This document shows positions 16,617 through 42,215 of a stretch of 62,190 bases of DNA, one piece after another. How positions within the stretch are numbered: the stretch's first letter is position 1; each line of letters starts with the position of its first letter. The stretch covers positions 1 to 62,190 of the forward strand of contig NZ_CP094674.1 in assembly GCF_022827545.1 (NCBI RefSeq), given 5' to 3'. Origin of the DNA: Hymenobacter tibetensis. GTDB lineage: Bacteria > Bacteroidota > Bacteroidia > Cytophagales > Hymenobacteraceae. A model generated the notes under the pieces. It did no database searches and had not been told where the DNA came from. It saw nothing but the letters and a program-made list of their open reading frames with translations. The position numbers and the translations under genes were made by a program.

Positions 16617-19600
16617 TTATGTCGCTGCAGGCGGGCTCACAGGCTTAGGCCAATTGGCGGCCAGTTGCTGCGCTCGGGCAGTGCCCAGTACAGCTTCCAC
16701 CACAGGGGCTACGGCTGCCCAGCCTGCCTGCGGCTGGCTCATCCCATGGCGGTGCAGCAGCAAGATTTCCCCGCGCGTTAGCCCGGTTACCCTTAGCAGG
16801 GAGAGCGCCGGGGTGGACAACCCTACCTCCAGCCGCGTTGCCAACTCGTTAAGCGCGTCGTCGGGCAGCGATACTGCCGGGTAAAGCGCCTGTACAATCG
16901 GGACGACGGAGCGCAGGTGAAATCGGGTAGCGTCCACGATGCGGCGGATGTCACCATAGTTGACCGGCACGAAGGCAGAGTTGGTGAAACGCTCCTCCAA
17001 ATCTTCCAAGGGGGTGCCAGCCAGCCATGCTTCTACCAGCAGCGCCCGTTTAGACCGTCGCAGGTAAGCCACACCCACCCCCGACCCACTTGGCAGAGAC
17101 TGCTGGTAAAGGCTGGCCAAATCGCCACCGAGCTGTTGGGCTACCTCGTGCGGCCAACTTTTTTCCTTGGTACCATTTTTGAAAAGCGGGGTGTAGGTTT
17201 CATCCAACTCGGGCAAAGCCTGCGTCAGGGCTAACAGTCTGGTAAGCGTCAGCGATGTGATGCTCAGCCGTCGCAGTAACTGCAGCAGGCGCAGCACCGA
17301 CTCGAATGACAGGGTAGAGGTGGCGCATGCTTCTCCCACAACCGTCAGCCGCAGCATATCTTCTACCTGCTCGACGATGCCAGCGGACAGCAGTTGCTCC
17401 AGCAGGTAGCCCAACTGACTTTGTACCTGCGGCCGCCAGGCGGGATTCTCGCGGCTGGCCACGTACCCCCCGTACGTGTTGGCCAACAGCCGGGCTACCT
17501 CCGCGCGCGGCACTTGGCCCACCTGCGCCAGCAGACGCAGCACCCACGTAGCCAGGTGCGCGCTGTTGAACGAGGAAGCAAGGTCTTCCGGCCGACCTAG
17601 CACGTAATGCTGAAACAGGTGTCGGCGCTCCATTGCGTTGCGGGCAATGATGAAGGACTGGCCGCGCTCGTTGTAGCCCAGGCGCCCGGCCCGGCCCGCC
17701 ATATTTTTGTATTCGGCAATAGTGAAGGGCTGCTGGTCCTCACCGGTAAACTCAGTTTCACCCAAAATCACCGCCGAGGCAGGGGTATTTATGCCGGCCG
17801 CGATGGTGGTGGTGGCCCCGAGCACGCGGATGCCGCCCTTCGGGTCGCGAAACGCCCGCTCTATCACCTCCCGCTCCTCACGCGCCAGATTGCTGTTGTG
17901 GAAGGCAGTGCCGCCGCGCAGGCACTCGCGCAGCCGAATGGCCGTGCGCGACTGGTCCTGCGCGGGCAAGGCCGCCGCTACGGCCGGCGCCCCGGGCAAG
18001 TGCAGGTCACGGGCTAGGTAACCAGCAACTCCTTCGGCCTTGCCACGCATGTTGCGAAAGACAATCACCTTGGCAGTTGTAGCCTGCGCCAGCAGCTGTC
18101 GCACTAGCGGTACGATAACATCTTGATTGCTGGGTTCTTTGCCACGCTGTACAATGGCGGACGACGGCAGCAATTGAGTGGTATACGCTTGGTTCGTGGC
18201 TGGGTCCACGTACTCGAATACGCCAGCGCGGTCGATGACCCCCTCTTCCAGCGGTACCGGCCGGCGCAGGTGCACTAGGGCTCGGCATTGCAACCAGTGC
18301 TCAAAGCCGTTGGTATCTCCGATAACGGCCGACAGCGCCACCAATTGCGGAGAAAGGCCTCGCTCGCGGGCCGTGAGCAGGTAAGTTAGCAGCAGTTCCA
18401 CGCTTATGCCCCGGCCGGGATTGGTGATAAACTGCGCCTCGTCGAGCACCACGGCTCCGATGCGATTAAGCACCCCCGGGCGGCTGACCAGTAGACTCAG
18501 AAACATTTCGTAGGTAAGCAGCGCTAGGTCATACTTGCCGCGTACGAAGGCGCTCGTAGCATCTTGGTAGTCGCCGGTGCAGCGAATTACTCGCAATCCA
18601 ATTGACTGCTCATAGGAAGCCACGAATTGCTCGTACTTCTCGTTAGCCAGCGCCTTGTAGGGCACCAGAAACACGGTGCGCCGGGTGTTGACGGCCGCCC
18701 GCACGGCCGCTAGCTCGCCAATAAATGTTTTCCCGCTGCTAGTAGGGGCCACCACCAGCAGCGACTGTCCATCCAGCACCCGGTACTCATTGATAGCCGC
18801 CAATTGCAGCTCGTTGAGCCCAGCAGGAAACTGCCGCTCCCACACCATGAGCACCTCCTCTGGCAGACCAAAGCCACTCAGTTCCCGCAAGCTGTTCGAC
18901 ACGCGCAGCCCAGTTTGCTCGGGAAATGCCCGGTAATAGTGTGGGCCAGCCTGCAGGGCTGGCAGCGCAAAACTGCCTTCTACCTCCCCTACCCAGCGAG
19001 GTGTCTGCACCGCACCCAACCGCTGAGCTTCGGCCTGTACCCGACCGCTTACTTCGGTCAGTAGGCTGGTTACGGCCAGCTCGCCCGATGCTGCCCGTAA
19101 AGCAGCCAGCAGCGCAGCCGTAAGCAGCCCGTGCTGGCCTGACTCCCAGGCTTCCTCCGTGACATTGGCAGCCGCCAGCAGCACCCGGCCGCGACCGGTG
19201 AACGCCTCCTCCAACGCATAACCTGCGCCCCGAGGTAACAGGCCGTCTTCGATTACTTTAGCGGGCGCCCCCCCACTGAAACAGCAGTCTAGTACCAGCA
19301 AGATGTGCCGGGCTCGGCTGCGACGAAAGCGCTCGGCCAAGCTAGCCATGGCAATGGTAGTGGCCGCCAAGTCGTTCAGGCTGGTATCGTAGGCGACCAG
19401 CCGGTGGTTGTGCGTACCATGCCCGGAAAAAGTCAGCAACACGGTATCATGCTCAGTGGCCTCGTCAAGCGTCCGAGTCAATAGCTGCTCGATGCCAACG
19501 TGCGTAGCTGCCTCGTCTACCAGCAGGCAGGGCGAAGTAGCGGGCAGCGTATCCTGCCACAGCGCCCATAAGGCCGTGGCATCACGTCGGGCGCAACTCA

Positions 19601-19670
19601 GTTCCGGAATCTCGGCATCCAGGTGGCGGTTAATGCCAATAAAGCCGGCCAGCAAGCGGGGAGTTTTCAT
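16617..19670 (-). CDS. Caspase-like protease fused to a Ski2-like SF2 helicase
   Basis: 1017 residues from an ATG at 19670. Residues 1-230 are a caspase-like (C14) domain: FIGINRHL start, His84 in FSGHGT, Cys130 in LDCCFSGG. Residues about 260-1000 are a Ski2/Hel308-type helicase: Walker A APTSSGKT (308-315), DEAQ (410-413), SAV (447-449), the TAFHNSNLAREEREVIERAF segment, VLGATTTIAAGINTPA, and the hallmark MAGRAGRLG (658-665). The C-terminus is helical and may hold the ratchet domain. I infer a nucleic-acid sensor or translocase controlling a protease. The C39-like protease gene lies 90 bases upstream on the same strand. Such fusions are rare, and I know no described system with this layout. 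Confidence 0.92.
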   Translation of the reverse strand: MKTPRLLAGFIGINRHLDAEIPELSCARRDATALWALWQDTLPATSPCLLVDEAATHVGIEQLLTRTLDEATEHDTVLLTFSGHGTHNHRLVAYDTSLNDLAATTIAMASLAERFRRSRARHILLVLDCCFSGGAPAKVIEDGLLPRGAGYALEEAFTGRGRVLLAAANVTEEAWESGQHGLLTAALLAALRAASGELAVTSLLTEVSGRVQAEAQRLGAVQTPRWVGEVEGSFALPALQAGPHYYRAFPEQTGLRVSNSLRELSGFGLPEEVLMVWERQFPAGLNELQLAAINEYRVLDGQSLLVVAPTSSGKTFIGELAAVRAAVNTRRTVFLVPYKALANEKYEQFVASYEQSIGLRVIRCTGDYQDATSAFVRGKYDLALLTYEMFLSLLVSRPGVLNRIGAVVLDEAQFITNPGRGISVELLLTYLLTARERGLSPQLVALSAVIGDTNGFEHWLQCRALVHLRRPVPLEEGVIDRAGVFEYVDPATNQAYTTQLLPSSAIVQRGKEPSNQDVIVPLVRQLLAQATTAKVIVFRNMRGKAEGVAGYLARDLHLPGAPAVAAALPAQDQSRTAIRLRECLRGGTAFHNSNLAREEREVIERAFRDPKGGIRVLGATTTIAAGINTPASAVILGETEFTGEDQQPFTIAEYKNMAGRAGRLGYNERGQSFIIARNAMERRHLFQHYVLGRPEDLASSFNSAHLATWVLRLLAQVGQVPRAEVARLLANTYGGYVASRENPAWRPQVQSQLGYLLEQLLSAGIVEQVEDMLRLTVVGEACATSTLSFESVLRLLQLLRRLSITSLTLTRLLALTQALPELDETYTPLFKNGTKEKSWPHEVAQQLGGDLASLYQQSLPSGSGVGVAYLRRSKRALLVEAWLAGTPLEDLEERFTNSAFVPVNYGDIRRIVDATRFHLRSVVPIVQALYPAVSLPDDALNELATRLEVGLSTPALSLLRVTGLTRGEILLLHRHGMSQPQAGWAAVAPVVEAVLGTARAQQLAANWPKPVSPPAAT

Positions 19671-19760
19671 CACGCGTAAAGGTGGGAACGTTCCGGGTAG
19701 TAGGTCCTATCGGCGGTGCACTTTTTGCCAGCCCGTTTCTCACTACCTGCGCCCATCCAG

Positions 19761-21362
19761 TTACACATCCTCAGCGACCGGCACCTGCAGGCCACGCAGC
19801 AGTAGTGGCAGAAAGCGGGGGTCAAACTTCGGGGCTGCCAGCAACTGCTGCCGAAAGTCATCCCGGCCGAGCCAGGTTGCCAGCGAGTCACGCAGCGGTT
19901 CAAATACGTTCACCAGCAGACAGTAGAAACCTGTATGTAGGTCGGTAGCGTCGAATACTAAGTCTAGCAGCGCGACTTGCTGCAGCGTGGCGCGGGCTAC
20001 CCACACGTACTTGGGTAGAACGCTCACTAGGATGCGCCGTAGGGGCTCCCCCTCCACCGGCCGGCGCTGGCGCAGTTCTTCCTTGTAGTGATTGCTGTAG
20101 TCCAGGTAGATGTCCCACACTACGTCGGCCCGCTCCTGGATAGTGCCCGCGAACAGCTGCTCAAATAACACGGTCTGCCGGAATACCTGCTCGTAGGTGA
20201 TGCGAATGTCGGCCGTAAGGGGCACGAAAATGCTGTAGAGGGAGGCGCGCCGGTACGCGTGCCAGGGCCCGGCTGGCTCCCAGTCGTCCAGCGGCCAGGG
20301 AGTCAGCAGGCGGCCGTCGTCGGTAAAGCCGTAGCGGGCAAATGGTCCCATCTGGTCGTCGTGCACGTAGAGGCGGTCCAGCGCGTCCGAAGTCAGGGCA
20401 AGTTCGACAGGGCACTGCGTGCGGCTAGTCGCTAGGCGGTAGCCGGTGACCGTTACCAAGTGACCTCGCTCTTCCCGCTCGTCGAGTAAAATAAACAGCA
20501 GCACGGGCAGGCCCAGGCGCACATAAGCGTAGATGAGTCCTTTGGCCCCCCGCAACTGCTCGCGCAACACCACGGCGGCGGCTTCGGAGTCCGCCCCCCA
20601 CTCCGCAGCTTGCCGATAGTTAGTTAAATCGGCTACCAGCCCCACAGACTGAATTGCTTCTCCTATTTGGGTGTGGTCGAGGCCGGTGCTGGGAAAGGTG
20701 CGGCCCCGCCGGTAAAACAGGTTACGGGCGGCCGACGTGATGTGGTAGGGCGAGGGCTGGGTGGTGTGAAACAGCGAAGCCGTCTTGTGGAAAGCCATCC
20801 ACAGAGCAGTTGTGGCGCAGGCGCTAACATTGTTGTCCTGCTCCTGAAAAATCAGGGTTTCCAGGCGTAACTGCTTGCCCAGTACGTTGATTTCATAAGG
20901 GCGCCGTGCGGGGTAAGCCCGCTGCTTGTCAGTCGCGGGCTGGTAGGGCTGCAGTAGGGTTGCCCCAATCTGTCGGGCCGGCAGGGGTTTGATGACGATG
21001 TATCCCAGGTAGGAGTTCCACAGCTCGCCCCCGGCCTGCGGGTCTAGCAGAGCCACTTCCAGAGCGGCTTGGTCGAACGCCTCCCGAAAGAAGTGGACTC
21101 GCTTGCACAGGCGCTCGTAGGCCGTAAAGCCCCGGGCGTAGTAGTCGGCATAGTCGTCCAGAAACGACTGGCTCAGGTACGGGCTCTCTACCATGATAGT
21201 ACGCGCCCCTAAGCCATCGTGCTCGTGGCCCAAGTACTCAGCAAAGTAGTAGAAGTGCTGCCGACGGCGAGTAGCCTCCGCATCTACCCATTGGTTGCTG
21301 AGCGCCTCGGCCAGCGCGGCCGGCGTGAAGGGAGATACGGTGTAGGTAATATGTTGAGGCAC
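19761..21362 (-). CDS. Papain/C39-like cysteine protease, partner of the caspase-helicase
   Basis: 533 residues from a GTG at 21362; no in-frame ATG lies nearby upstream. A peptidase core is visible: Gln in FQEQDNN, nucleophile Cys182 in VSACATTALWMAF, His301 in RGHLVTVTGYR and Asp335/336 in YVHDDQMGPF. The spacing and the GHxVxVxGY signature fit C39- or papain-like enzymes. An N-terminal 170-residue region and a C-terminal 200-residue helical region have no recognised fold. There is no signal peptide, so it acts in the cytosol. It is the first gene of a two-gene unit with the caspase-helicase. A 62-base piece of its 3' part recurs at 24889-24950. Confidence 0.75.
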   Translation of the reverse strand: MPQHITYTVSPFTPAALAEALSNQWVDAEATRRRQHFYYFAEYLGHEHDGLGARTIMVESPYLSQSFLDDYADYYARGFTAYERLCKRVHFFREAFDQAALEVALLDPQAGGELWNSYLGYIVIKPLPARQIGATLLQPYQPATDKQRAYPARRPYEINVLGKQLRLETLIFQEQDNNVSACATTALWMAFHKTASLFHTTQPSPYHITSAARNLFYRRGRTFPSTGLDHTQIGEAIQSVGLVADLTNYRQAAEWGADSEAAAVVLREQLRGAKGLIYAYVRLGLPVLLFILLDEREERGHLVTVTGYRLATSRTQCPVELALTSDALDRLYVHDDQMGPFARYGFTDDGRLLTPWPLDDWEPAGPWHAYRRASLYSIFVPLTADIRITYEQVFRQTVLFEQLFAGTIQERADVVWDIYLDYSNHYKEELRQRRPVEGEPLRRILVSVLPKYVWVARATLQQVALLDLVFDATDLHTGFYCLLVNVFEPLRDSLATWLGRDDFRQQLLAAPKFDPRFLPLLLRGLQVPVAEDV

Positions 21363-21394
21363 ACTATGGTGGCTAAAAGGCCAGGTTAAGGCAC

Positions 21395-21421
21395 AAAAAA
21401 AGGCATCCGTTGCGGGATGCC
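21395..21421 (-). terminator. Rho-independent terminator, minus strand, after the 57-aa gene
   Basis: On the minus strand the stem GGCATCC / GGATGCC is followed by a run of seven or more T. It lies between the 57-residue gene and the cysteine protease gene. It separates their transcription, or attenuates the protease-helicase operon. Confidence 0.85.
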
Positions 21422-21446
21422 TGCCAAGCTGTCGGCGCGGGCCGCC

Positions 21447-21620
21447 CTACAGGCGGGCCCGTACCTTCAGGCGGTCGCGGTCCACCACGGCCCGGTCAGA
21501 AAGTTCATCGGCCGTGCGCAACGCGCGAGCGACGCGTTCTTGGTTTTCACGGCCCTGAAACTGGGCCCGTTCCCCCCGAAACTCAATCACCAGCTTGGGG
21601 GACTGTTCAGTAGTTGGCAT
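21447..21620 (-). CDS. 57-residue protein between two divergent protease operons
   Basis: The ATG at 21620 (MPTTEQSPKLVIEF) gives 57 residues, very rich in Arg and acidic residues (EFRGERAQFQGRENQERVAR). It has no Cys and no membrane segment, and it looks like a strand followed by helices. It lies in the gap between the two protease operons and ends just before a strong terminator, so it is its own transcription unit. Small charged proteins in this position can be regulators, antitoxin-like inhibitors or triggers, but nothing in the sequence proves a role. Confidence 0.6.
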   Translation of the reverse strand: MPTTEQSPKLVIEFRGERAQFQGRENQERVARALRTADELSDRAVVDRDRLKVRARL

Positions 21621-21836
21621 GGCAGTAGCGGCAAAATGGAACGGCAAAAGTACGCTATGTCGCGCAGATTGCCGCAAATTAAGTCAATAATACGCTGCTT
21701 TACGATAAATTCGTGCGGGCAGTTCCTATAAGGCACCCTGAGAATGGTGCCAGCGCGGGCACCCGCCCCGAGGTAGCGCGCCCAGTGTTTCGGGCTATCT
21801 TGCCGGAATTTCGCTTCTTCTTTTTTTTCTAAAGCT

Positions 21837-23618
21837 ATGCGCGCTGCCATCTGCATTGGAGTTGACCGGACAACCAGCCTGCCCCCGCTGTCGGCCGCAG
21901 CCAAGGGCGCAGAAGACTTTGCTCGCTGGGCCGGGGCACAAGGATGCGACGTGCAGCTGCTGGTTGACCGGACGGAGCCCGTGCGGCTCCACCACGTGTT
22001 CGAGGCTGTGCAGCGGGTGGTGGAGGCCGCTACGTACGCGCAGCTTTATATCTACTTCTCGGGTCATGGTATTCTTAGCGCACCCGGCACAGAATATTGG
22101 CTGCTTTCGGGAGCTCCGCGCAACCCTAACGAGGCGATCAACCTGTTTCGCAGCACCGAAGATGCCCGGCAGGCGGGCATCCCCCATGTCATCTTCGTCT
22201 CCGATGCCTGCCGGTCGGCCGCCGGTGGTGCCCCGCTGAACGGGGTACTCGGCGGGGTTATCTTTCCTAACCAGCCAGCGCGCTCCGCCAGCACGGGGGT
22301 AGACGTGTTCTACGCTACGCAGCCCGGTGACCCAGCCTACGAGGTGTCGGAGGCGGAGGCCGCGGCACACTACCGGGGGCTGTTCACCGATTGCTTGCTG
22401 GCTGCTGTCAGTACCCCTGAACGTTCGCTGGTGGAGGACCTAGCCGCCACGCCCCCGGTGAGCATCATCACCTCGCACCGCCTGAAGGACTACCTGGAAA
22501 GGCAGGTGCCCAAAGCGGCGGCAGCCATTAGCCTGAAGCTGAACCAGCGCCCACAAGTACGCGTCGAAACGGTCAGCCCGAAATACTTTGCCCTAACCGC
22601 GGCGAATATGGCTGCTATGCCCACTGCCCCGGTGACCGAGCCCGCTACGGAGCGGCCACTAGAGCCCTTTACCACACGCCCCGTCTTCCCTTGGTCGGAG
22701 CAGCGGAATAGCCGGGGCTTAGGAGCTCCCTGGCTGGGGCCGGTAGCGGGTACCCAGGTTAACTTAGTGCCGCGCATCCGGGATACAAACAGTGAAGCAG
22801 TCGACGAGCTACGCCGCTACGCCCAATACCTGCCCGCCGATACCGCTACCGGCTTTACCATAATCGGAGCGGAGTTGGTCACGGCCGTGGTTTCTCCGGC
22901 TTGGACTGTAGAGCGGTTGCCTGCACCCGCCGCCCGGCCGGACGCGCACTATCTGCGGCTGACCGTGGACGCGATGGCTCTACCATCAGCGCTCGCCACC
23001 TCAACCATCGTGCTGGAGTTTGCGGGCGAAACGGGTGCGCTGCTAGCGGTGCTACCAGGCTTTATTGGGGTTGTTGTCGTGGAGCGGAGCCGTGTTGTCA
23101 GCGTAAACTACCGGCTGGCTCCGGCCACCCGGCCCCAGCGGGGGGATGCCCACACAGTGGCCTGGGAGGAGTTGAAAGCCGTTGCCGCCGTGACTTCCCG
23201 GCAGGGTAGCTTCGTGCTACTCGACCAGCAAGATGAATTACTCGCGCTGACGCGATTCTGGCAGGCCCCCGACCCAACCATGGCCCTGTACCTAGCTTAT
23301 GGTTACGCCGAGCGTGGCCGCCCCGATCAAGTGGTAGCTACCCGGCAGCAATTGGCCGGTGAAGATACCCTGCCCCGGCTGTTCGATCTAGCCCTGCTGA
23401 CGGCGCGGCACCAGGCAGTGTACCCTGCAGCAGCTGTTACTGAGCTGGTTCCCCTGGCCCCGCTGCTCGCCCAGGGCTGGGCCCTGCTTACGCCGGATAG
23501 TCCTTTGTACCAACCCTGGCACGGCCAGCTGCGTCCACACCTGCTGCCTTCCTTTTGGAGTACATACACCCGCGCGGGCTTGGACCTGGTCCGCACCACC
23601 TTTTTATCTAGTCTATAG
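21837..23618 (+). CDS. Second caspase-like (C14) protease with long C-terminal region
   Basis: 593 residues from an ATG at 21837. The N-terminal 240 residues form a caspase-like domain: the AICIGVD strand, His77 in YFSGHGI and Cys125 in FVSDACRSAAG, which is the classic DAC(R/H)S motif. Residues about 310-440 are beta-rich (IGAELVTAVV, TIVLEFAGETGAL, FIGVVVVE). The last 150 residues are helical, with a TPR-like look around LYLAYGYAERGRPDQVVATR. Its stop is three bases from the start of the hydrolase gene. Divergent from the caspase-helicase operon, it may be the second arm of one protease cascade. Confidence 0.88.
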   Translation: MRAAICIGVDRTTSLPPLSAAAKGAEDFARWAGAQGCDVQLLVDRTEPVRLHHVFEAVQRVVEAATYAQLYIYFSGHGILSAPGTEYWLLSGAPRNPNEAINLFRSTEDARQAGIPHVIFVSDACRSAAGGAPLNGVLGGVIFPNQPARSASTGVDVFYATQPGDPAYEVSEAEAAAHYRGLFTDCLLAAVSTPERSLVEDLAATPPVSIITSHRLKDYLERQVPKAAAAISLKLNQRPQVRVETVSPKYFALTAANMAAMPTAPVTEPATERPLEPFTTRPVFPWSEQRNSRGLGAPWLGPVAGTQVNLVPRIRDTNSEAVDELRRYAQYLPADTATGFTIIGAELVTAVVSPAWTVERLPAPAARPDAHYLRLTVDAMALPSALATSTIVLEFAGETGALLAVLPGFIGVVVVERSRVVSVNYRLAPATRPQRGDAHTVAWEELKAVAAVTSRQGSFVLLDQQDELLALTRFWQAPDPTMALYLAYGYAERGRPDQVVATRQQLAGEDTLPRLFDLALLTARHQAVYPAAAVTELVPLAPLLAQGWALLTPDSPLYQPWHGQLRPHLLPSFWSTYTRAGLDLVRTTFLSSL

Positions 23619-23621
23619 TCT

Positions 23622-24503
23622 ATGAAACTTGTATTAATACACGGCCGGGGGCAGGCAGGCCTCGACCCGCAGCTACTGCAGCAGCAGTGGCTGACAGCCC
23701 TGCACCACGGCTGCGCCCGGGCTCGCGTGCAGTTGCCGGCCGACACGGTCGTGGAATTTCCCTACTACGGCGACGCGCTGGCCCAAGCAGTTGCGGAAAT
23801 AGACTCACCCTTGGACGCTGCCATCCGGGCGAAAGGCCTGCTGGCAGGTCCAGACGTAGCCCTTGCAGGTGAAATTCTGCTGGAGTTGGCCGCTCACGCA
23901 GGTATACACGAATCGGATATCGTGTTGGAAGTTGGCTCGGTGCCAGTAGAGCGCGGACCTGCCAACTGGGGCTGGGTGCAGGCCTTGCTGCGGGCCGTTG
24001 ACCGTCTGCCTGGGCTAAACAGCCAGCTGCTGACCGCCTTTACGCGCGATGTATCCGTGTACCTAAGCTACGACGGCGTCCGGGCGCGGGTCAACGACAT
24101 AGTAGCGGCTACATTGAGTACCACCGAACCGTGCGTGGTGCTTGCCCACTCGCTCGGTACAGTCGTAGCCTACGATATACTGCGCGAGCGGGGTGCTAGT
24201 CCGCAATACCCCGGTCTGGTGACGGTAGGCTCGCCGCTAGGTATCCGCGCTATTCAGCGCCAACTGGCCACTCCCCTAGTATCACCGCCCGGCGTGGCCC
24301 ACTGGTTTAATGCCTACGACAACCACGATGTAGTCGCCCTGCTGCCGCTGGATGCCCGCTACTTTAACGTTACGCCGGCTATTGAGAATAAATCGGATGT
24401 GCTCAACCATACTGAAGACCGTCACGGCATCATGGGTTACCTCACCGACCCTGTGGTGGCCCGGCGCATCGTTGAGGCCCTAGAAGGCCGGCACCCGGCC
24501 TAA
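23622..24503 (+). CDS. Alpha/beta-hydrolase (lipase/esterase-like), co-transcribed with the caspase
   Basis: 293 residues from an ATG at 23622. Signatures are the oxyanion strand-turn LVLIHGRGQ at the N-terminus, nucleophile Ser177 in VVLAHSLGTVVAYD, acid Asp232/235 in AYDNHDVVALLP and His267 in TEDRHGIMGYL, with SPLG after strand 6. There is no signal peptide. In immune islands such hydrolases often act as phospholipases or on small acyl substrates. Near-overlap with the caspase gene makes it the likely substrate (a zymogen activated by cleavage) or co-effector; that is inference. The 50-residue insert between HGRGQ and the core could be a cleavable cap. Confidence 0.88.
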   Translation: MKLVLIHGRGQAGLDPQLLQQQWLTALHHGCARARVQLPADTVVEFPYYGDALAQAVAEIDSPLDAAIRAKGLLAGPDVALAGEILLELAAHAGIHESDIVLEVGSVPVERGPANWGWVQALLRAVDRLPGLNSQLLTAFTRDVSVYLSYDGVRARVNDIVAATLSTTEPCVVLAHSLGTVVAYDILRERGASPQYPGLVTVGSPLGIRAIQRQLATPLVSPPGVAHWFNAYDNHDVVALLPLDARYFNVTPAIENKSDVLNHTEDRHGIMGYLTDPVVARRIVEALEGRHPA

Positions 24504-24883: not shown

Positions 24884-24888
24884 CGCAT

Positions 24889-24950
24889 CGACGCTACCGA
24901 CCTACATACAAGTTTCTACTGCCTGCTGGTGAACGTATTTGAACCGCTGC
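24889..24950 (+). repeat. 62-base copy of the 3' part of the cysteine protease gene
   Basis: 60 of 62 bases match the complement of 19892-19953, the coding region around DATDLHTGFYCLLVNVFEPL. It is a relic of a duplicated protease gene lying beyond the hydrolase gene, in inverted orientation relative to the intact gene, and marks the right edge of the protease island. Confidence 0.9.
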
Positions 24951-30709: not shown

Positions 30710-31924
30710 TTAGCGCTTTACCAGGTAGTCCACCCCAGCGCGGCTTTCCAGCTGGAAGCCCTGACTCAAGTACAAGCGCAGCACGTGCTCCTCGAAGGTT
30801 TCCTCCACTAAGATCTTTTTCAGGAAGGGGCCGGGGTTAGTAAACATCTCCCGCACCTCGGCCAGCGGCAGTGCTACTTCCTTCGCTGCTAGCGCCTGAG
30901 CCTTCGCTGACCGTTTCGGAGCAGGCCGAGCTTGCTCCTCCAGAAACTCGGCCAGCAGGTACTTCTCGGCCAGCGCTTTATAAATGGCCCCCGAGGCTCT
31001 TTTCACTTTGCCCAACTCTTTCTGCTTGGTGACCCGGTTGAGCACAAACTCTACGTAGTCTAACCCGTACTCGCCCGCGGCCAGCTGACCAGCAATTTGC
31101 TCCAACGACCGTTTGCTCACGCCAACGGCTAGGAGCGGCTGCTTCCAGTCAGCACTCTCGGCTGGCTCGGCACTTTCAGTATGCTCAGTATACTGAGCAT
31201 CTTTGGTAATTTCAGTATTCACAATTTTCTCAGGATGCTCAATCAGAAATTTGATGCGCTGCACAATCTGATTTTGCCGTTCGGTCTCGAAGTTGAATGG
31301 CATATCGGTGGAGGCTAACTCCCGCTGGGCCTTATCTAACACCCGGGCCTTGAACGAAGAAAAACGCGGGTACTCGTTTTCGGCAATGTCCAGAATAAAG
31401 CGCAACTGCTGCAGCGTCATCGTGCGCTCGCCAAACGTAGCGTACTCCTTTAGAAGCCAGTAGATCCGGAGCGCATACGGGCTTTTCAGCTTCCGGAGCT
31501 CTGCGAGGGTCGCCGTCGTGAAGTTGCCCGATGACCGGAGCTGTAGCAGGTACGGCATGATCAGCGGGTTGAAGATGGCCACTACTCCCCCTTCGTCGCC
31601 TCTGTATTCGGCCTTGGCCAGCAACGGGATGTACTCGAAGTGGGGCTTCTTGCTTCGCTTTCGGGTGCCCTCCTCCAGCTTCTCGATGTAAATGGTAAAC
31701 GAGCTAAGCTTCTTACACATCAAATCGATCTGGTGGTAGGCCGACCCGCCCTCCGGTTGGAAGAAGATCTCGCGGATCGGAATCACGTGCTCCTTGAAGT
31801 CGGCGTCCTCGTACTCGATGCGGGCGAGCAACGACAAAAACAGGCGCATCTGCAGCGGCTCAAAGCTAAATCTGGCATTGATTAACGCGTTGTGCTGGGC
31901 GACAATACGGGCGTTGTTGTCCAT
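30710..31924 (-). CDS. Plasmid replication initiator (Rep_3/RepB family)
   Basis: 404 residues from an ATG at 31924. The N-terminal winged-helix initiator region includes LINARFSFEPLQMRLFLSLL, DLMCKKLSSFTIYI and LRKLKSPYALRIYWLLKEY, which are typical of Rep_3 initiators (compare RepB, RepE, pi). The C-terminal 150 residues are Ala/Glu-rich and family-specific. Iterons begin 21 bases upstream of its start, as expected for a Rep that binds the origin and represses its own promoter. It converges with the metalloprotease gene. Confidence 0.93.
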   Translation of the reverse strand: MDNNARIVAQHNALINARFSFEPLQMRLFLSLLARIEYEDADFKEHVIPIREIFFQPEGGSAYHQIDLMCKKLSSFTIYIEKLEEGTRKRSKKPHFEYIPLLAKAEYRGDEGGVVAIFNPLIMPYLLQLRSSGNFTTATLAELRKLKSPYALRIYWLLKEYATFGERTMTLQQLRFILDIAENEYPRFSSFKARVLDKAQRELASTDMPFNFETERQNQIVQRIKFLIEHPEKIVNTEITKDAQYTEHTESAEPAESADWKQPLLAVGVSKRSLEQIAGQLAAGEYGLDYVEFVLNRVTKQKELGKVKRASGAIYKALAEKYLLAEFLEEQARPAPKRSAKAQALAAKEVALPLAEVREMFTNPGPFLKKILVEETFEEHVLRLYLSQGFQLESRAGVDYLVKR

Positions 31925-31944
31925 GGTCGAAGGGAGTGAGTCGG

Positions 31945-32290
31945 GGCATTTTTGTTGCACCCTGAGCGGTTTACGTTAAAAAGGTAGCACCCTGGTGAAG
32001 CATTCTGTTGCGCCCTGACGTCATTTTTGTAGCACCCTGGCTAGTGTGGATAAGTCAAGGCATTCTTGTTGCACCCTGATCGGCGCAGGGCATTTTTGTT
32101 GCACCCTGACGGCATTTCTGTTGCGCCCTGGGGGCATTCTTGTTGCAGCCTCACGGCATTCTTGTTGCAGCCTGACCGTACATCCTGCTGAAATTCAGTT
32201 AGATATGACCCCTGTAATACTATAATATCAATAAGTAAAGTAAACTAGCTAGTAGGAGCTTCTTCAAAGGGCATTCTTGTTGCACCCTGA
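31945..32290. repeat. Iteron array, probable plasmid origin of replication
   Basis: The consensus is about 21 bases: GGCATT(C/T)TTGTTGCACCCTGA. Full or near-full copies start at 31945, 32000, 32021, 32059, 32089, 32111, 32133, 32155 and 32270, plus a partial at about 31983. All are in the same orientation, with 21-24 base periodicity within the cluster 32089-32175 and a looser lead. AT-rich DNA at 32200-32250 and 32340-32410 could be the melting region. They flank the rep promoter, so they also serve as operators. Confidence 0.92.
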
Positions 32291-32690: not shown

Positions 32691-33034
32691 TATGCCCCCA
32701 GTTTGCGATTAGTTTTGCGCAGCTTCTCCAGTACCTGGGCGGGCAGCTCCCTTTGTGCCGCGGGTAATTGCTGCAGGGCCTGCTGCAGGGCGTTGTCCAC
32801 AAACTCACGGATCTCGAAGCCGGGCTCGTAGTACTCGGCCTGCTTGAGCTGTAGATAAATGGACCGGTGCACGTAGGAGCCAAAGGCCACCCAGGGGTCG
32901 GGGTCCTCCGGCGGCGGGGCGGGGGCCTGAACGGGCGCCGTGGCATCGGGGAACATCAGCCCATTAGGCGCGTCTAGTAGGGACGGGCTGGGCTGGCTTA
33001 ACTTAGTCTTCAAACGTTCAGAACGGGCGCTCAT
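32690..33034 (-). CDS. ParB-like partner, small centromere-binding protein
   Basis: 114 residues. The N-terminus is disordered and Pro/Ala-rich (PVQAPAPPPEDPDP). The C-terminus is helical (FGSYVHRSIYLQLKQAEYYEP and EIREFVDNALQQAL) and could form a ribbon-helix-helix-like or helical dimer. It overlaps parA by four bases at its start. A small protein directly after parA is usually the DNA-binding partition partner; the sequence itself does not match classical ParB. Confidence 0.72.
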   Translation of the reverse strand: MSARSERLKTKLSQPSPSLLDAPNGLMFPDATAPVQAPAPPPEDPDPWVAFGSYVHRSIYLQLKQAEYYEPGFEIREFVDNALQQALQQLPAAQRELPAQVLEKLRKTNRKLGA

Positions 33035-33789
33035 AGTCGGGCTAGCATTTCGGTGGTAAGTTCCTCGTAGTCCTGGGCGCCGGCGCTCTCAGGGGCGTAG
33101 GAATAGAGATCTTGCTTTTCAATCTGGGCCTCGGCCAGCTTGCCGTTCTGGCGGATGCTGGTGGCCATCAGCAGGGGCGCCATCACGGGATTGTCGCGCA
33201 TGACTTCCACCACGTCGTGGTGCATGCCGAACCGGTAGCTGGGCGAGTATTTGGTCAGGAACAGGCCGCCCACTTTGAGCTTCTGGTTGAAGTTCTTGGC
33301 CATCACGCGCACGGCCTCCAGCAGGGTATTAAGCCCCTCGTAGCCGAAGAACTCGGGCTGGGTCGGAATGAAGACGGCATCACTGGCCACCAGGGCGCCA
33401 TACGTGAGGCTGGTGAGCGCCGGCGGGGTGTCGATGAGGCAGTAGTCGAATTCGGCCGCAACGTCTTCCAGCTGGTCGCGCAGAAAGAATTGGTAGGCGG
33501 GCTGCTGACCGAGCACCTTCTCCAGTTGCGTGAGCTCCAGAGCCGCCGGCGCCAGGGCCAGGTTCGGGCCCACCTTGAGCAGGATCTGGCGCAGGGTTTT
33601 CTCGCCCTGAATCACGTGGCCCAGGTGACTGACCACCTGCACCGGGAACGACATGGTCAGGTTGTGCTGGGGGTCGCAGTCCAGCAGCAGCACCCGGTGG
33701 CCCCTGTGGGCCAACTGCTGGGCCACGGCCAGCGTGCTGGTGGTTTTGCCCACGCCGCCCTTGTGGTTGGCAAAGGTAAGAATCCGCAT
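33031..33789 (-). CDS. parA: ParA-type partition ATPase
   Basis: 252 residues. The deviant Walker A motif KGGVGKTT follows FANH at the N-terminus. The Asp-containing LLLDCDPQHNLT is the A' motif, and YCLIDTPPAL is Walker B. The length fits a type Ib ParA without an N-terminal HTH. It drives plasmid segregation by ATP-dependent binding to nucleoid DNA, stimulated by its partner. It overlaps the next gene by four bases (33031-33034), giving a three-gene operon. Confidence 0.95.
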   Translation of the reverse strand: MRILTFANHKGGVGKTTSTLAVAQQLAHRGHRVLLLDCDPQHNLTMSFPVQVVSHLGHVIQGEKTLRQILLKVGPNLALAPAALELTQLEKVLGQQPAYQFFLRDQLEDVAAEFDYCLIDTPPALTSLTYGALVASDAVFIPTQPEFFGYEGLNTLLEAVRVMAKNFNQKLKVGGLFLTKYSPSYRFGMHHDVVEVMRDNPVMAPLLMATSIRQNGKLAEAQIEKQDLYSYAPESAGAQDYEELTTEMLARL

Positions 33790-39317: not shown

Positions 39318-42215
39318 ATGAATCCATTATTTACGGCCGAGCAGTTGCGGGCTCCGCTAGCGCGCTTTCGCCTAAGTCAGTTCGCCGACCTTCGGGCTAA
39401 GCAAGCTCTACTTGGCGAATGGATTGCACAATTAAAGTCGGGCAAACTCACCAGCCTGAAAGAAGAGGAAGTGAAGTCTCGCTTTGTAACAGACTTTTTC
39501 GGCGAAGTGCTAGGCTTTAACAGCGGCAACTCTCGCACTTGGCAGCTGCGAGAAGAACTACGTACGAAGGTAGATGCCACCAAGGCAGATGCTGCGCTAG
39601 GCTATTTCAGCACTGACCGCGCAACGGATATTTGCCGAGCCGTTATTGAGATTAAGGATGCTGCTACGGAGTTAGATGCCCGCCAGAAGCGTCCCGACCC
39701 CAAATCGGCCGTTGACCAGGCATTTGAGTATGCCCCCAAAATGCGTGGCGAGTGCCGTTGGGTAATTGTTTCTAATTTTCGAGAAATCCGCTTTTACTGG
39801 GCCAATGACCGGAGCCGCTACCAGCATTACCTGCTGGCCGAGCTAGCCCAGGAAGAAAAGCTGAAGGAGCTACTGCTGCTGTTTCACAAAGACCGATTTA
39901 TCACCCGAATTGGCGAATCACGCACCGATAAGCTGCTTCACAGCACAGCAACTCCGGTGCCCGTTGCAGGTGAGCAGCACGTTGTGGATGAGCTATATCA
40001 ATGCTTGCAGCGCTTCGAAGGGCTGAATTTTGTAAATCCCAATTACCTGGCGTCACTCTACCCCTTCAATATCCTCAACCAGCACGTGTGGCATTACCAG
40101 GATGGCACCCTCCTGACGCTAAACCCACACATTTGCTGGTTACTCGAAGGCTTGTCAGTACAGGACAATCAATTGGTGCTCAGCGAAGCCTTGCATGATG
40201 AATTAGTAGGAGCCGGGGTAACTAATTATGAGCACAAGCTTGCATGGACAATCCGGTACCTGAACCGCTGCCACATCACGTATTTTAAGGCCGTTCGCGA
40301 CTACCAGGCTATAGACGCCCGCCACAAAAACACCATTGGCTTCAGCTACCGCCACATGTTTTACGTCGGCGAGCAGGATGGCATCGAGAAAGAGCTGGAC
40401 TTGTCGCCAAAAGCTACGTGTCAGTGCTTGATATGCCTGTACCGCCGCCTTGACCTTACCGCGTTTCTGGAAAAGCTGAAAAGCGCCGCTGGCTACGAAG
40501 AATACTACACGCTTGAATATGCCTATGGCAACTACCTAGCTGCCACAAATAACTACCGAACGGCGCACGACATTTACCTATTTATTGAACGCCAGGCCAA
40601 AAACCAGCAAGACCAGGGCGTTACCTACTTTCTGGCCAAGCAAAACCGCTTGCACCTGCATAACCTGCTTCAGTCCAGTTATTTCCACGACGATCAGGAG
40701 CAGTTGCTGGCCAATATCCGCGACATTGACCTAATAAGTGTCATCAGTGACGAACTGGAGGGGGAAATCCATCCTGAAGTACGCAAGTACCTGCTCGATA
40801 TTGAACGCGACGACCTGGCCTATAAAGTACAGGACGAGCTAGATGAGCGAATAACACGCCTGCTCAACCGCCAACGGGCCCTAATGCGGGGTGGTACCTA
40901 TCAAGGTCCTGATGACCTCCTGCACCTGTGGTACCAATATGATTTGCTCTACCGGCACATCAACCTGAATTACTTTGTCTACGATGGGTTTACAAAGTAT
41001 CGTTCACTAGCCAAACGGCTTTTTGAAGCAGCGCTGATTGGTTATTCCATACCGGAAGCAGACGAAACAAGGATGCATGAGTACTTTGTTAGAGAAGCCA
41101 TATTTCACATCAACTCCCGCGACTTGGCCGGTATACTGAAGAAGACCAAGAAGCTAGTAGTAGCCGAGCAGGGCCGGCAAGATTTGCTGAGCCAAACTCG
41201 CAATTTGCTAAAGTCATTTTACCAAAAGGGCATTTTTAATGCTCCTTATGCGACATCATTACTACAAGAGTTCTTGCTGAACCGCCGCTTTGAAGAAAAC
41301 ATCACGGATATTTTCAGCAACCTTTTCATTATTCTAGCCCGCCTTAGGCTGACCGTTGAAGATGTCAATGAAATGGCAGAAGCATTGGCCGGTTTTCTAT
41401 CAGTAGAAACGGTTCTTGGCTGGAGCGATGTTGAACATCTTGCGTTTTTCTTGCAACGCAAAGGCAAGCTGTTCACCCAAGCGCATTTGCACAAGCTGCT
41501 AGAACTTGTGCTGCTGGAAAATCGGGTGCGCGGCAACCGCTACCAGCCGCTGATTCCGCCCATTGTGGAAGCGTTGTACGTGCAATATCCCGACTTCAAA
41601 ATCACTGAAAAAAGCTTGATTCGCAAGGTGGTAGCCAACTGCTACTCAGGCACAGGTGTACGTGCTGGCTTTAAGCACCTAGCCCAACTGCATCGCATCA
41701 CAGACTCCGCTTGCACGACATATTTACGAGCCGAGTTTCAAGAATATCTCAACGAGCACTTTGACACGGATTTGTACCGCTCGCTGCTCTGGCATGATGC
41801 TCTGGCTTACGACGAGCACACTTATTTCGCCCAGTGGGTACAAGAAGTAGCCCCAACCGCTCATAGAAGCTTCGGTGGCTTTCAGAATGGTAATCCTCAG
41901 TTTCAGAATTACACGTTCTTAAATTTTGCTTTACTGATTTACGAGAAGAATATTCCTTTTGACACAACGGCTTTACAGCAACTCACCGACCTACCTGATT
42001 TTGAGAGTTGGCTCATACGCCCCGATGAGTTCGATTATGAACTGTTTGATGTGAACTGGCTCACCGTACTACGGCCCTATAAAGCCTTTTTTACTCGTCT
42101 GCGCACAATAGCCCCTTTGCACTATGCCACCAAGCATTACATAGAGAATAATTTCAATCCAGATGTGTACACTTTGTACAATAAGCATTTACAACCCGGA
42201 ACCGAGAATGATTGA
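39318..42215 (+). CDS. PD-(D/E)XK nuclease fused to a long helical region
   Basis: 965 residues from an ATG at 39318. The first 190 residues resemble the nuclease domain at the N-terminus of IIG restriction-modification proteins: a Glu/Glu-Val helix (KEEEVKSRFVTDFFGEVLG), Asp91 in KADAALGY, Glu111-x-Lys113 in AVIEIKD and Gln134 in AVDQAFEYAP. No methyltransferase follows. Instead some 750 residues of helical, repeat-like sequence follow, including CQCLICLYRR, which might bind zinc. I infer a DNA nuclease regulated by a helical sensor. It replaced or coexisted with the nearby methyltransferase relic. Confidence 0.82.
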   Translation: MNPLFTAEQLRAPLARFRLSQFADLRAKQALLGEWIAQLKSGKLTSLKEEEVKSRFVTDFFGEVLGFNSGNSRTWQLREELRTKVDATKADAALGYFSTDRATDICRAVIEIKDAATELDARQKRPDPKSAVDQAFEYAPKMRGECRWVIVSNFREIRFYWANDRSRYQHYLLAELAQEEKLKELLLLFHKDRFITRIGESRTDKLLHSTATPVPVAGEQHVVDELYQCLQRFEGLNFVNPNYLASLYPFNILNQHVWHYQDGTLLTLNPHICWLLEGLSVQDNQLVLSEALHDELVGAGVTNYEHKLAWTIRYLNRCHITYFKAVRDYQAIDARHKNTIGFSYRHMFYVGEQDGIEKELDLSPKATCQCLICLYRRLDLTAFLEKLKSAAGYEEYYTLEYAYGNYLAATNNYRTAHDIYLFIERQAKNQQDQGVTYFLAKQNRLHLHNLLQSSYFHDDQEQLLANIRDIDLISVISDELEGEIHPEVRKYLLDIERDDLAYKVQDELDERITRLLNRQRALMRGGTYQGPDDLLHLWYQYDLLYRHINLNYFVYDGFTKYRSLAKRLFEAALIGYSIPEADETRMHEYFVREAIFHINSRDLAGILKKTKKLVVAEQGRQDLLSQTRNLLKSFYQKGIFNAPYATSLLQEFLLNRRFEENITDIFSNLFIILARLRLTVEDVNEMAEALAGFLSVETVLGWSDVEHLAFFLQRKGKLFTQAHLHKLLELVLLENRVRGNRYQPLIPPIVEALYVQYPDFKITEKSLIRKVVANCYSGTGVRAGFKHLAQLHRITDSACTTYLRAEFQEYLNEHFDTDLYRSLLWHDALAYDEHTYFAQWVQEVAPTAHRSFGGFQNGNPQFQNYTFLNFALLIYEKNIPFDTTALQQLTDLPDFESWLIRPDEFDYELFDVNWLTVLRPYKAFFTRLRTIAPLHYATKHYIENNFNPDVYTLYNKHLQPGTEND

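Follow-up and report, generated by a model that had tools for sequence, protein, structure and literature searches.

A caspase-helicase fusion beside a protease, a second caspase and a hydrolase on a probable Hymenobacter plasmid

Described systems and the Hymenobacter block

Helicase-gated nucleases and signal-gated caspases are both known designs of bacterial immunity. Type IV Thoeris, for example, combines a TIR protein with a caspase and is triggered by a TIR-made signal. Here we describe a block of five genes from Hymenobacter tibetensis, at 16617-24503 of the 62,190-nucleotide stretch analyzed (the window). In it a caspase is fused to a superfamily 2 (SF2) helicase and is accompanied by a C39-like protease, a 57-amino-acid (aa) open reading frame (ORF), a second caspase and a hydrolase. 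From how their homologs are distributed, the block is likely two modules joined: (A) the caspase-helicase and (B) the protease, the small ORF and the caspase/hydrolase pair. We tentatively read these as two likely defense modules on a probably plasmid contig, with an abortive-infection or self-destruct role against viruses, and hold this reading at a little less than even confidence. The features, in window coordinates, are as follows.

16617-19673, minus strand: caspase-helicase fusion, 1018 aa, with a caspase at about aa 5-230 and a Hel308-like SF2 helicase at about aa 266-1004 (Pfam, NCBIfam and PDB matches)
18924-19673, minus strand: caspase domain of the fusion, about aa 1-250 (Pfam match and conserved dyad)
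16662-18878, minus strand: helicase part of the fusion, about aa 266-1004, with Walker A K314, DEAQ 410-413 and motif VI R660/R663 (P0001 numbering)
19761-21362, minus strand: C39-like cysteine protease, 533 aa, predicted papain fold, with C182, H301 and D335
21447-21620, minus strand: conserved ORF of 57 aa preceding the C39-like gene (codon-position pattern)
21621-21836, no strand: divergent intergenic stretch, presumably holding the promoters of both operons
21837-23618, plus strand: second caspase, 593 aa, with H77 and C125 and a predicted MALT1/caspase-like domain at aa 1-258
23622-24503, plus strand: alpha/beta-hydrolase (lipase-like), 293 aa, with an AHSLG nucleophile motif and conserved Asp and His
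24888-24950, plus strand: 63-bp inverted copy of C39-like coding DNA, a 97% match to 19892-19954, at the far end of the block

A preliminary description of this locus had listed four adjacent genes. All four are genuine ORFs with conserved relatives, but the 57-aa gene had been overlooked. The C39-like gene lies 87 bp before the caspase-helicase gene, and a 3-bp gap separates the second caspase from the hydrolase. As contig C6, the window belongs to a genome of seven contigs whose nearest genomes are of the same genus. It codes for a Rep3 replication initiator (30710-31960) and a ParA-like ATPase (33031-33789), which make it most likely a plasmid; no overlap was found between its two ends.

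Excerpts of the Hachiman study describe a Ski2-like helicase as a genome-integrity sensor, a role that its authors say may be more general (PMC12278908). Like Hachiman, the block would couple an SF2 helicase sensor of the Ski2/Hel308 class to a destructive enzyme, but that enzyme is the HamA nuclease there and a fused caspase here. Our domain scan covered the four larger genes (Pfam E values up to 1) and 12 other window ORFs, and found no HamA (DUF1837) among them. In the available text of a second study (PMC12799240), precedents for caspase-driven defense and protease-activated effectors include nuclease-protease Hachiman, where a trypsin-like protease is fused to HamA and paired with a metallo-beta-lactamase (MBL) nuclease, and Canu, where a caspase activates a nuclease. 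These also join a protease and a helicase, or a caspase and a partner enzyme, in a proteolytic antiphage relay, whereas in the present block one caspase is part of the helicase protein and the other has an alpha/beta-hydrolase as its partner. The hydrolase stands where Canu has an MBL-type nuclease beside its caspase, and none of the four genes gave an MBL match.

As stated in the parts of Kaur 2020 on VMAP systems, caspase domains there always neighbor an alpha/beta-hydrolase (PMC7159879). Adjacent caspase and alpha/beta-hydrolase genes are found here and on rhizobial plasmids too, but this pair stands alone or by other genes, some of them proteases, and VMAP-C, MoxR and vWA had no Pfam match in the genes and ORFs scanned. 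EACC1 caspases are similar in having an N-terminal caspase with a variable C-terminal domain; the examples that the EACC1 section of the same article gives for some 50 fused domains include no helicase (Kaur 2020, PMC7159879). The NCBIfam model of EACC1-type caspases yielded 85.4 and 32.2 bits, under its cutoff of 140, and no EACC1 transmembrane partner was seen among the window ORFs scanned, the 57-aa ORF lying outside that scan. Membership in VMAP, EACC1, Canu or Hachiman was rejected, as a defining feature of each is missing from the genes and ORFs scanned. With Type IV Thoeris the likeness is a caspase-like executor in phage defense, but no TIR domain occurs in the window ORFs scanned; two distant caspase-helicases lie near TIR/TIR/caspase genes.

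Caspase and helicase in one protein had been seen before, among metacaspases: excerpts of Asplund-Samuelsson 2012 count helicase domains in 12 of 671 prokaryotic caspase homologs, with no function or context (PMC3501461); those 12 are possibly of the present family. Beyond this count, the open-license literature (preprints not included) held no described caspase-Hel308 defense system, though one may be described elsewhere. The parts and the design logic are known, and the combination was not found described in that literature. Joining helicase to caspase covalently would tie DNA surveillance directly to proteolytic cell death, a bacterial counterpart of animal helicase-to-caspase signaling.

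A family of caspase-fused helicases

The caspase domains of the fusion and of the second caspase both exceed the Pfam cutoff. Residues were checked in the best 120 of 1,844 relatives of the fusion, the best 120 of 191 relatives in a further list and all 106 relatives of the C39-like protease. Among the best 120 of 1,844, the dyad of the fusion (H84 and C130, counted from the second Met) is kept in 120/120 and the helicase motif residues in 118-120. An inactive caspase domain in the fusion was rejected on this basis. Loss of the dyad in most relatives, which the preliminary description had named as evidence against its proposal, is thus not what these relatives show.

The helicase had been called Ski2-like, which does not hold in that specific sense. 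Against the PDB it matched Hel308 (2zj2, E 2.7e-59) with 204.5 bits and HamB (8vx9) with 64.3 bits. With NCBIfam models it scored 274.6 bits for PRK02362 (equivalog cutoff 887) and 229.7 bits for Hel308 (cutoff 1200); Hel308 membership by equivalog score is not reached, and the protein is Hel308-like rather than a member. The PADLOC HamB model, from a different library than the Hel308 models, gave 104.7 bits. By these scores the SF2 helicase is nearer to Hel308 than to Ski2 or HamB, and a specifically Ski2/HamB identity was disfavored because Hel308 models and structures score higher. In PADLOC 2.0.0, the caspase model and HamB models match parts of the fusion, and no model spanning all of it is among the matches listed (25 of 43).

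To date the family is large. At least 1,844 of 7,998 scored candidates are relatives of the fusion at E<=0.001, a count that may include helicases without a caspase; 118 of the best 120 carry precomputed caspase and DEAD labels. Our genome scan found at least 80 loci, including at least 36 named loci (L071-L106) with both parts, some ending at a contig edge. In a quick-method helicase tree of 82 rows, the 48 caspase-fused rows make up one side of a single branch with a support of 100; the 34 non-fused rows were picked by pattern and include long branches. Left out of the tree were 24 near-duplicate or fragment loci and any row whose aligned helicase part did not exceed 330 residues. Among the fused rows 15 phylum labels are represented; several come from metagenome-assembled genomes (MAGs), including an archaeal one. 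On this sequence evidence caspase-helicases form a family of their own, widespread and in most cases encoded by a gene that stands alone. The size of the family, the grouping of its fused members and the retention of their catalytic residues make it a clean target.

Full-length caspase-helicases are encoded in 7 of 120 Hymenobacter genomes (G000, G110, G009, G137, G078, G108 and G024). Truncated or stop-containing pieces are present in seven more (G028, G027, G084, G089, G087, G033 and G071), as expected of fast-turnover genes. In G028 (L053 1-2441), an open frame of 271 aa runs from the caspase domain of the fusion straight into the fusion's last ~60 residues, with the helicase missing; this could be decay or an assembly matter. 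Among 395 sampled Bacteroidota two carry the gene, and one of the two is the genome of the window itself; a search of 72,556 plasmid records (E<=1e-40) gave 11 with it.

Elsewhere, the caspase-helicase is found beside diverse defense genes. QatABCD lies directly downstream of it in L082 (PADLOC), with matching gene clusters in L092 and L095; in these three proteobacterial loci the caspase-helicase is directly upstream of Qat. The distance to the QatABCD operon is 15 bp (L082 5984-15960, also L092 and L095), and the two are possibly co-transcribed. A weakly AbiEi-like gene is found upstream of the Qat-linked caspase-helicase. Septu PtuA/PtuB are nearby in L068 (PADLOC). Other neighbors are ABC-three-component genes, Piwi, XamI restriction, and UvrD with multiubiquitin/ThiF; Mrr, SEFIR/TIR and AbiEii are also found near caspase-helicases. 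In G078 a DUF900 alpha/beta-hydrolase gene directly follows the caspase-helicase. TIR, TIR and caspase genes are near the caspase-helicase on two plasmids. Directly upstream of the distant caspase-helicases of L172 (5370-14873) and L173 (3149-9084) lies a gene of 201 aa, and both have a TIR/TIR/caspase cluster in the vicinity.

The protease, the small ORF and the caspase/hydrolase pair

The C39-like protease has a predicted papain fold with a core at about aa 144-385, and C182, H301 and D335 are conserved. With this modeled fold and its Cys, His and Asp, it classes as a papain-like or C39-like peptidase.

The 57-aa ORF was revealed by conservation upstream of the protease gene in a DNA alignment of the divergent spacer; conservation drops upstream of it, in 21621-21836. 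All 10 of the Hymenobacter C39 loci examined have it. At codon positions 1, 2 and 3 the aligned copies show 956, 771 and 1633 differences, with start codons chosen to fit the alignment; the excess at third positions supports coding. Three distant proteobacterial relatives of the protease are directly preceded by an ORF of 52-65 aa with no obvious sequence similarity. A small protein preceding a protease suggests an inhibitor, regulator or substrate, and the 57-aa protein may be any of these.

The C39-like gene is encoded in 11 of 120 Hymenobacter genomes, seven of which lack the second caspase and the hydrolase. Its neighbors vary by genome and include CHAT/DUF7379, type I and III restriction(-modification), reverse transcriptase and E1-E2/JAB genes. 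Papain-fold relatives in L161 (6881-10639) and L162 (3683-9010) lie by multiubiquitin and ThiF genes and, in L162, a DUF6527 gene; these relatives are candidate deubiquitinase-like components of a bacterial ubiquitin-like system.

In the second caspase, the predicted domain at aa 1-258 matches MALT1 and is followed by a low-confidence linker (263-314) and a beta-rich and helical C-terminal part. The caspase (C14) His/Cys dyad is conserved in both caspases, and for the second caspase the fold was predicted and checked. The Ser, Asp and His columns of the hydrolase are invariant in 13/13 aligned relatives, a selection from the loci in hand that left out the weaker L035, L036, L152-L154 and L159. 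Its Pfam matches fall below the cutoff; the nucleophile motif and the Ser-Asp-His residues mark it as a putative alpha/beta-hydrolase. Neither the second-caspase profile nor the hydrolase found a useful match among PDB sequences. The two caspases, the C39-like protease, the hydrolase and the fusion of one caspase to a helicase had all been proposed from the sequence, and each is borne out with conserved catalytic residues.

The second caspase and the hydrolase are encoded in the same 4 of 120 Hymenobacter genomes (G000, G093, G110 and G028); two more have weak hydrolase matches. All four also encode the C39-like protease (P 4e-5 assuming independent genomes, which they are not). In G000, G110 and G093 the C39-like gene is divergent from and adjoins the second caspase. 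The G028 locus shows decay, with a remnant of the second caspase directly against a C39-like gene that has lost its first ~60 codons, and the rest of the second caspase is with the hydrolase on another contig. Six same-sized contigs, the window's own included, appear in both the C39 and the second-caspase lists (0.5 expected after jitter), suggesting that these are shared contigs.

All seven plasmid records with a second-caspase match are rhizobial, and the C39-like gene is absent beside their caspase/hydrolase pairs. The hydrolase directly follows the second caspase in 5/5 of the records examined, and a sixth has adjoining matches. More distant pairs are encoded on an Agrobacterium plasmid, another Sinorhizobium plasmid and a short contig of G460. 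In Sinorhizobium medicae (L156 875-4206), a subtilase and an MBL-fold gene are divergent from the pair, like protease-nuclease pairs. A trypsin-like gene is near the pair in Bradyrhizobium, on the same strand but non-adjacent. The divergent genes are unassigned or XendoU-like in S. chiapasense and ParB-like in Agrobacterium, so a second protease beside the pair is not constant.

Conservation of the block and its possible workings

Like the window, Hymenobacter sp. IS2118 (G110) encodes all five genes in collinear order. Four blastn pieces are common to the window and the G110 locus (L051). All fall within 16648-24489, a span that holds the small ORF as well as the four larger genes, and blastn found no match to the window in the remainder of G110's contig. 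Since nucleotide similarity ends at the block, the genes stayed together while their surroundings changed. The proteins are 75, 75, 54 and 68% identical, and a ParA-like gene is found on both contigs by protein comparison. With tblastx, matches between the window and other loci were scattered, short and attributable to noise, except for the block and plasmid maintenance (ParA-like) genes. The DNA shared with G093 lies within 19778-24472, and there the protease, second caspase and hydrolase occur as a trio without the caspase-helicase. A metagenome contig with a length of 11953 appears in each of three lists of relatives, those for caspase-helicase, protease and second caspase; that this is one contig follows only from equal size, and it is consistent with a further case of the joined block.

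Our preferred reading, of two likely defense modules that serve antiviral self-destruction, starts from the gene content, the conserved catalytic residues, the single branch of fused helicases, the defense neighbors and a block kept between different flanks. In module A, the Hel308-like helicase would sense abnormal DNA, its ATP-driven movement would release the fused caspase, and the freed caspase would kill or arrest the infected cell. DNA rather than RNA is the presumed trigger because of the kinship with Hel308 and the analogy with HamB of Hachiman; with a caspase fused to such a helicase, DNA sensing followed by caspase release is our best guess. Module B may be a second killing arm, triggered by proteolysis and probably directed at the membrane, that acts through the lipase-like enzyme, with lipids as its likely substrate. 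A cascade from module A into module B is plausible. If the modules communicate, the most likely route is that the second caspase or the papain-fold enzyme is activated by proteolysis, and the 57-aa protein would then act as an inhibitor or regulator. The block makes testable whether prokaryotes have initiator-executioner protease cascades ending in a lipase-like effector. In a bolder version, which we consider unlikely, the fusion is a one-protein DNA-damage inflammasome of bacteria and some archaea, whose Hel308-type helicase patrols DNA, meets phage-made or broken structures and directly switches on its own caspase; in Hymenobacter it would be wired to the papain-fold enzyme with its small inhibitor-like protein, the second caspase and the lipase-like hydrolase, a cascade from initiator to executioner that ends in membrane destruction.

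Several results weigh against the preferred reading. The caspase-helicase is rarely joined to the trio: only two of the seven Hymenobacter genomes with a full-length copy have both, to which the decayed G028 and the one inferred metagenome contig can be added, and the other five lack all three genes. Close relatives of these genes were found within 8 kb at 0/35 other named fusion loci (L072-L106), where several contigs end sooner and one locus is G009. Within Hymenobacter, the C39-like gene and the full-length caspase-helicase do not coincide more often than chance predicts (P 0.12; 0.025 counting G028). No same-strand ORF of at least 100 aa lies within 60 bp of the caspase-helicase at 27 of 42 loci, and the close same-strand genes at the other 15 differ in identity. 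This survey used a crude gene caller, set aside 5 of 47 loci as contig edges and left out the window itself; from it, a constant partner of the caspase-helicase was rejected. Named neighbors are often defense genes, at the loci where they could be named and with no matched control genes, and one examined plasmid had no named defense neighbor. The caspase-helicase had no match in 50,697 phage records at E<=1e-20, and 33 pattern matches in viral contigs included no confirmed fusion relative, so there is no direct tie of the fusion to phages. A viral origin of the fusion was rejected on the same searches.

At eight plasmid fusion loci the other three genes were found in none, apart from one weak second-caspase match (E 1e-6); two of the named and plasmid loci repeat Hymenobacter genomes already counted. 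That all block genes always occur together was rejected, given their separate distributions in Hymenobacter and at the named loci.

The block could instead be a single five-gene cascade, in which nucleic acid is sensed by the helicase, the fused caspase in turn activates the papain-fold protease as well as the second caspase, and the latter releases or activates the hydrolase. Collinearity between different flanks in the window and G110, the decayed version in G028 and the contig of 11953 listed for all three protein families speak for it, but the solitary caspase-helicases in five of seven Hymenobacter genomes, the 35 named loci without the other genes and the G093 trio without a helicase leave it rather doubtful. 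The preliminary description had looked to recurrent co-occurrence as support for one system, and this was found in G110, with flanks unshared at the blastn level, but not more widely.

About as doubtful is that three independent defense modules (the caspase-helicase, the C39-like protease with its small ORF, and the caspase/hydrolase pair) are stacked on a plasmid as chance neighbors with no functional link. Each has a distribution of its own, and the C39-like gene elsewhere keeps the varied company listed above. Yet the block is collinear at 54-75% protein identity while its flanks differ, and the second caspase is with the C39-like gene in 4/4 Hymenobacter genomes having it, divergent and adjacent in the three intact ones. 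The doubt raised earlier, that independent modules merely lie together, was thus right about separate distribution, as the genomes and loci without the trio and the G093 trio indicate, but the modules stayed joined in this Hymenobacter lineage.

It is quite unlikely that the papain-fold enzyme acts on ubiquitin-like proteins, as a deubiquitinase-like enzyme outside the caspase cascade: no ubiquitin-like or E1 gene is among the 16 window ORFs scanned, and staphopain and C39 peptidases are the better matches. Least probable is a non-defense role of the caspase-helicase as a DNA-repair or stress-response helicase with a regulatory peptidase, for although its closest solved helicases belong to the repair family Hel308, it is patchy (7/120 Hymenobacter, 2/395 Bacteroidota), often plasmid-borne (11 records), found in broken copies and neighbored by defense genes.

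The 63-bp inverted repeat (19892-19954 and 24888-24950) flanks most of the block and is a recent duplication scar or possibly an inversion site. Farther along the same contig, at 39318-42215, a large protein with an MmeI-N-like domain is encoded, perhaps a restriction-modification gene.

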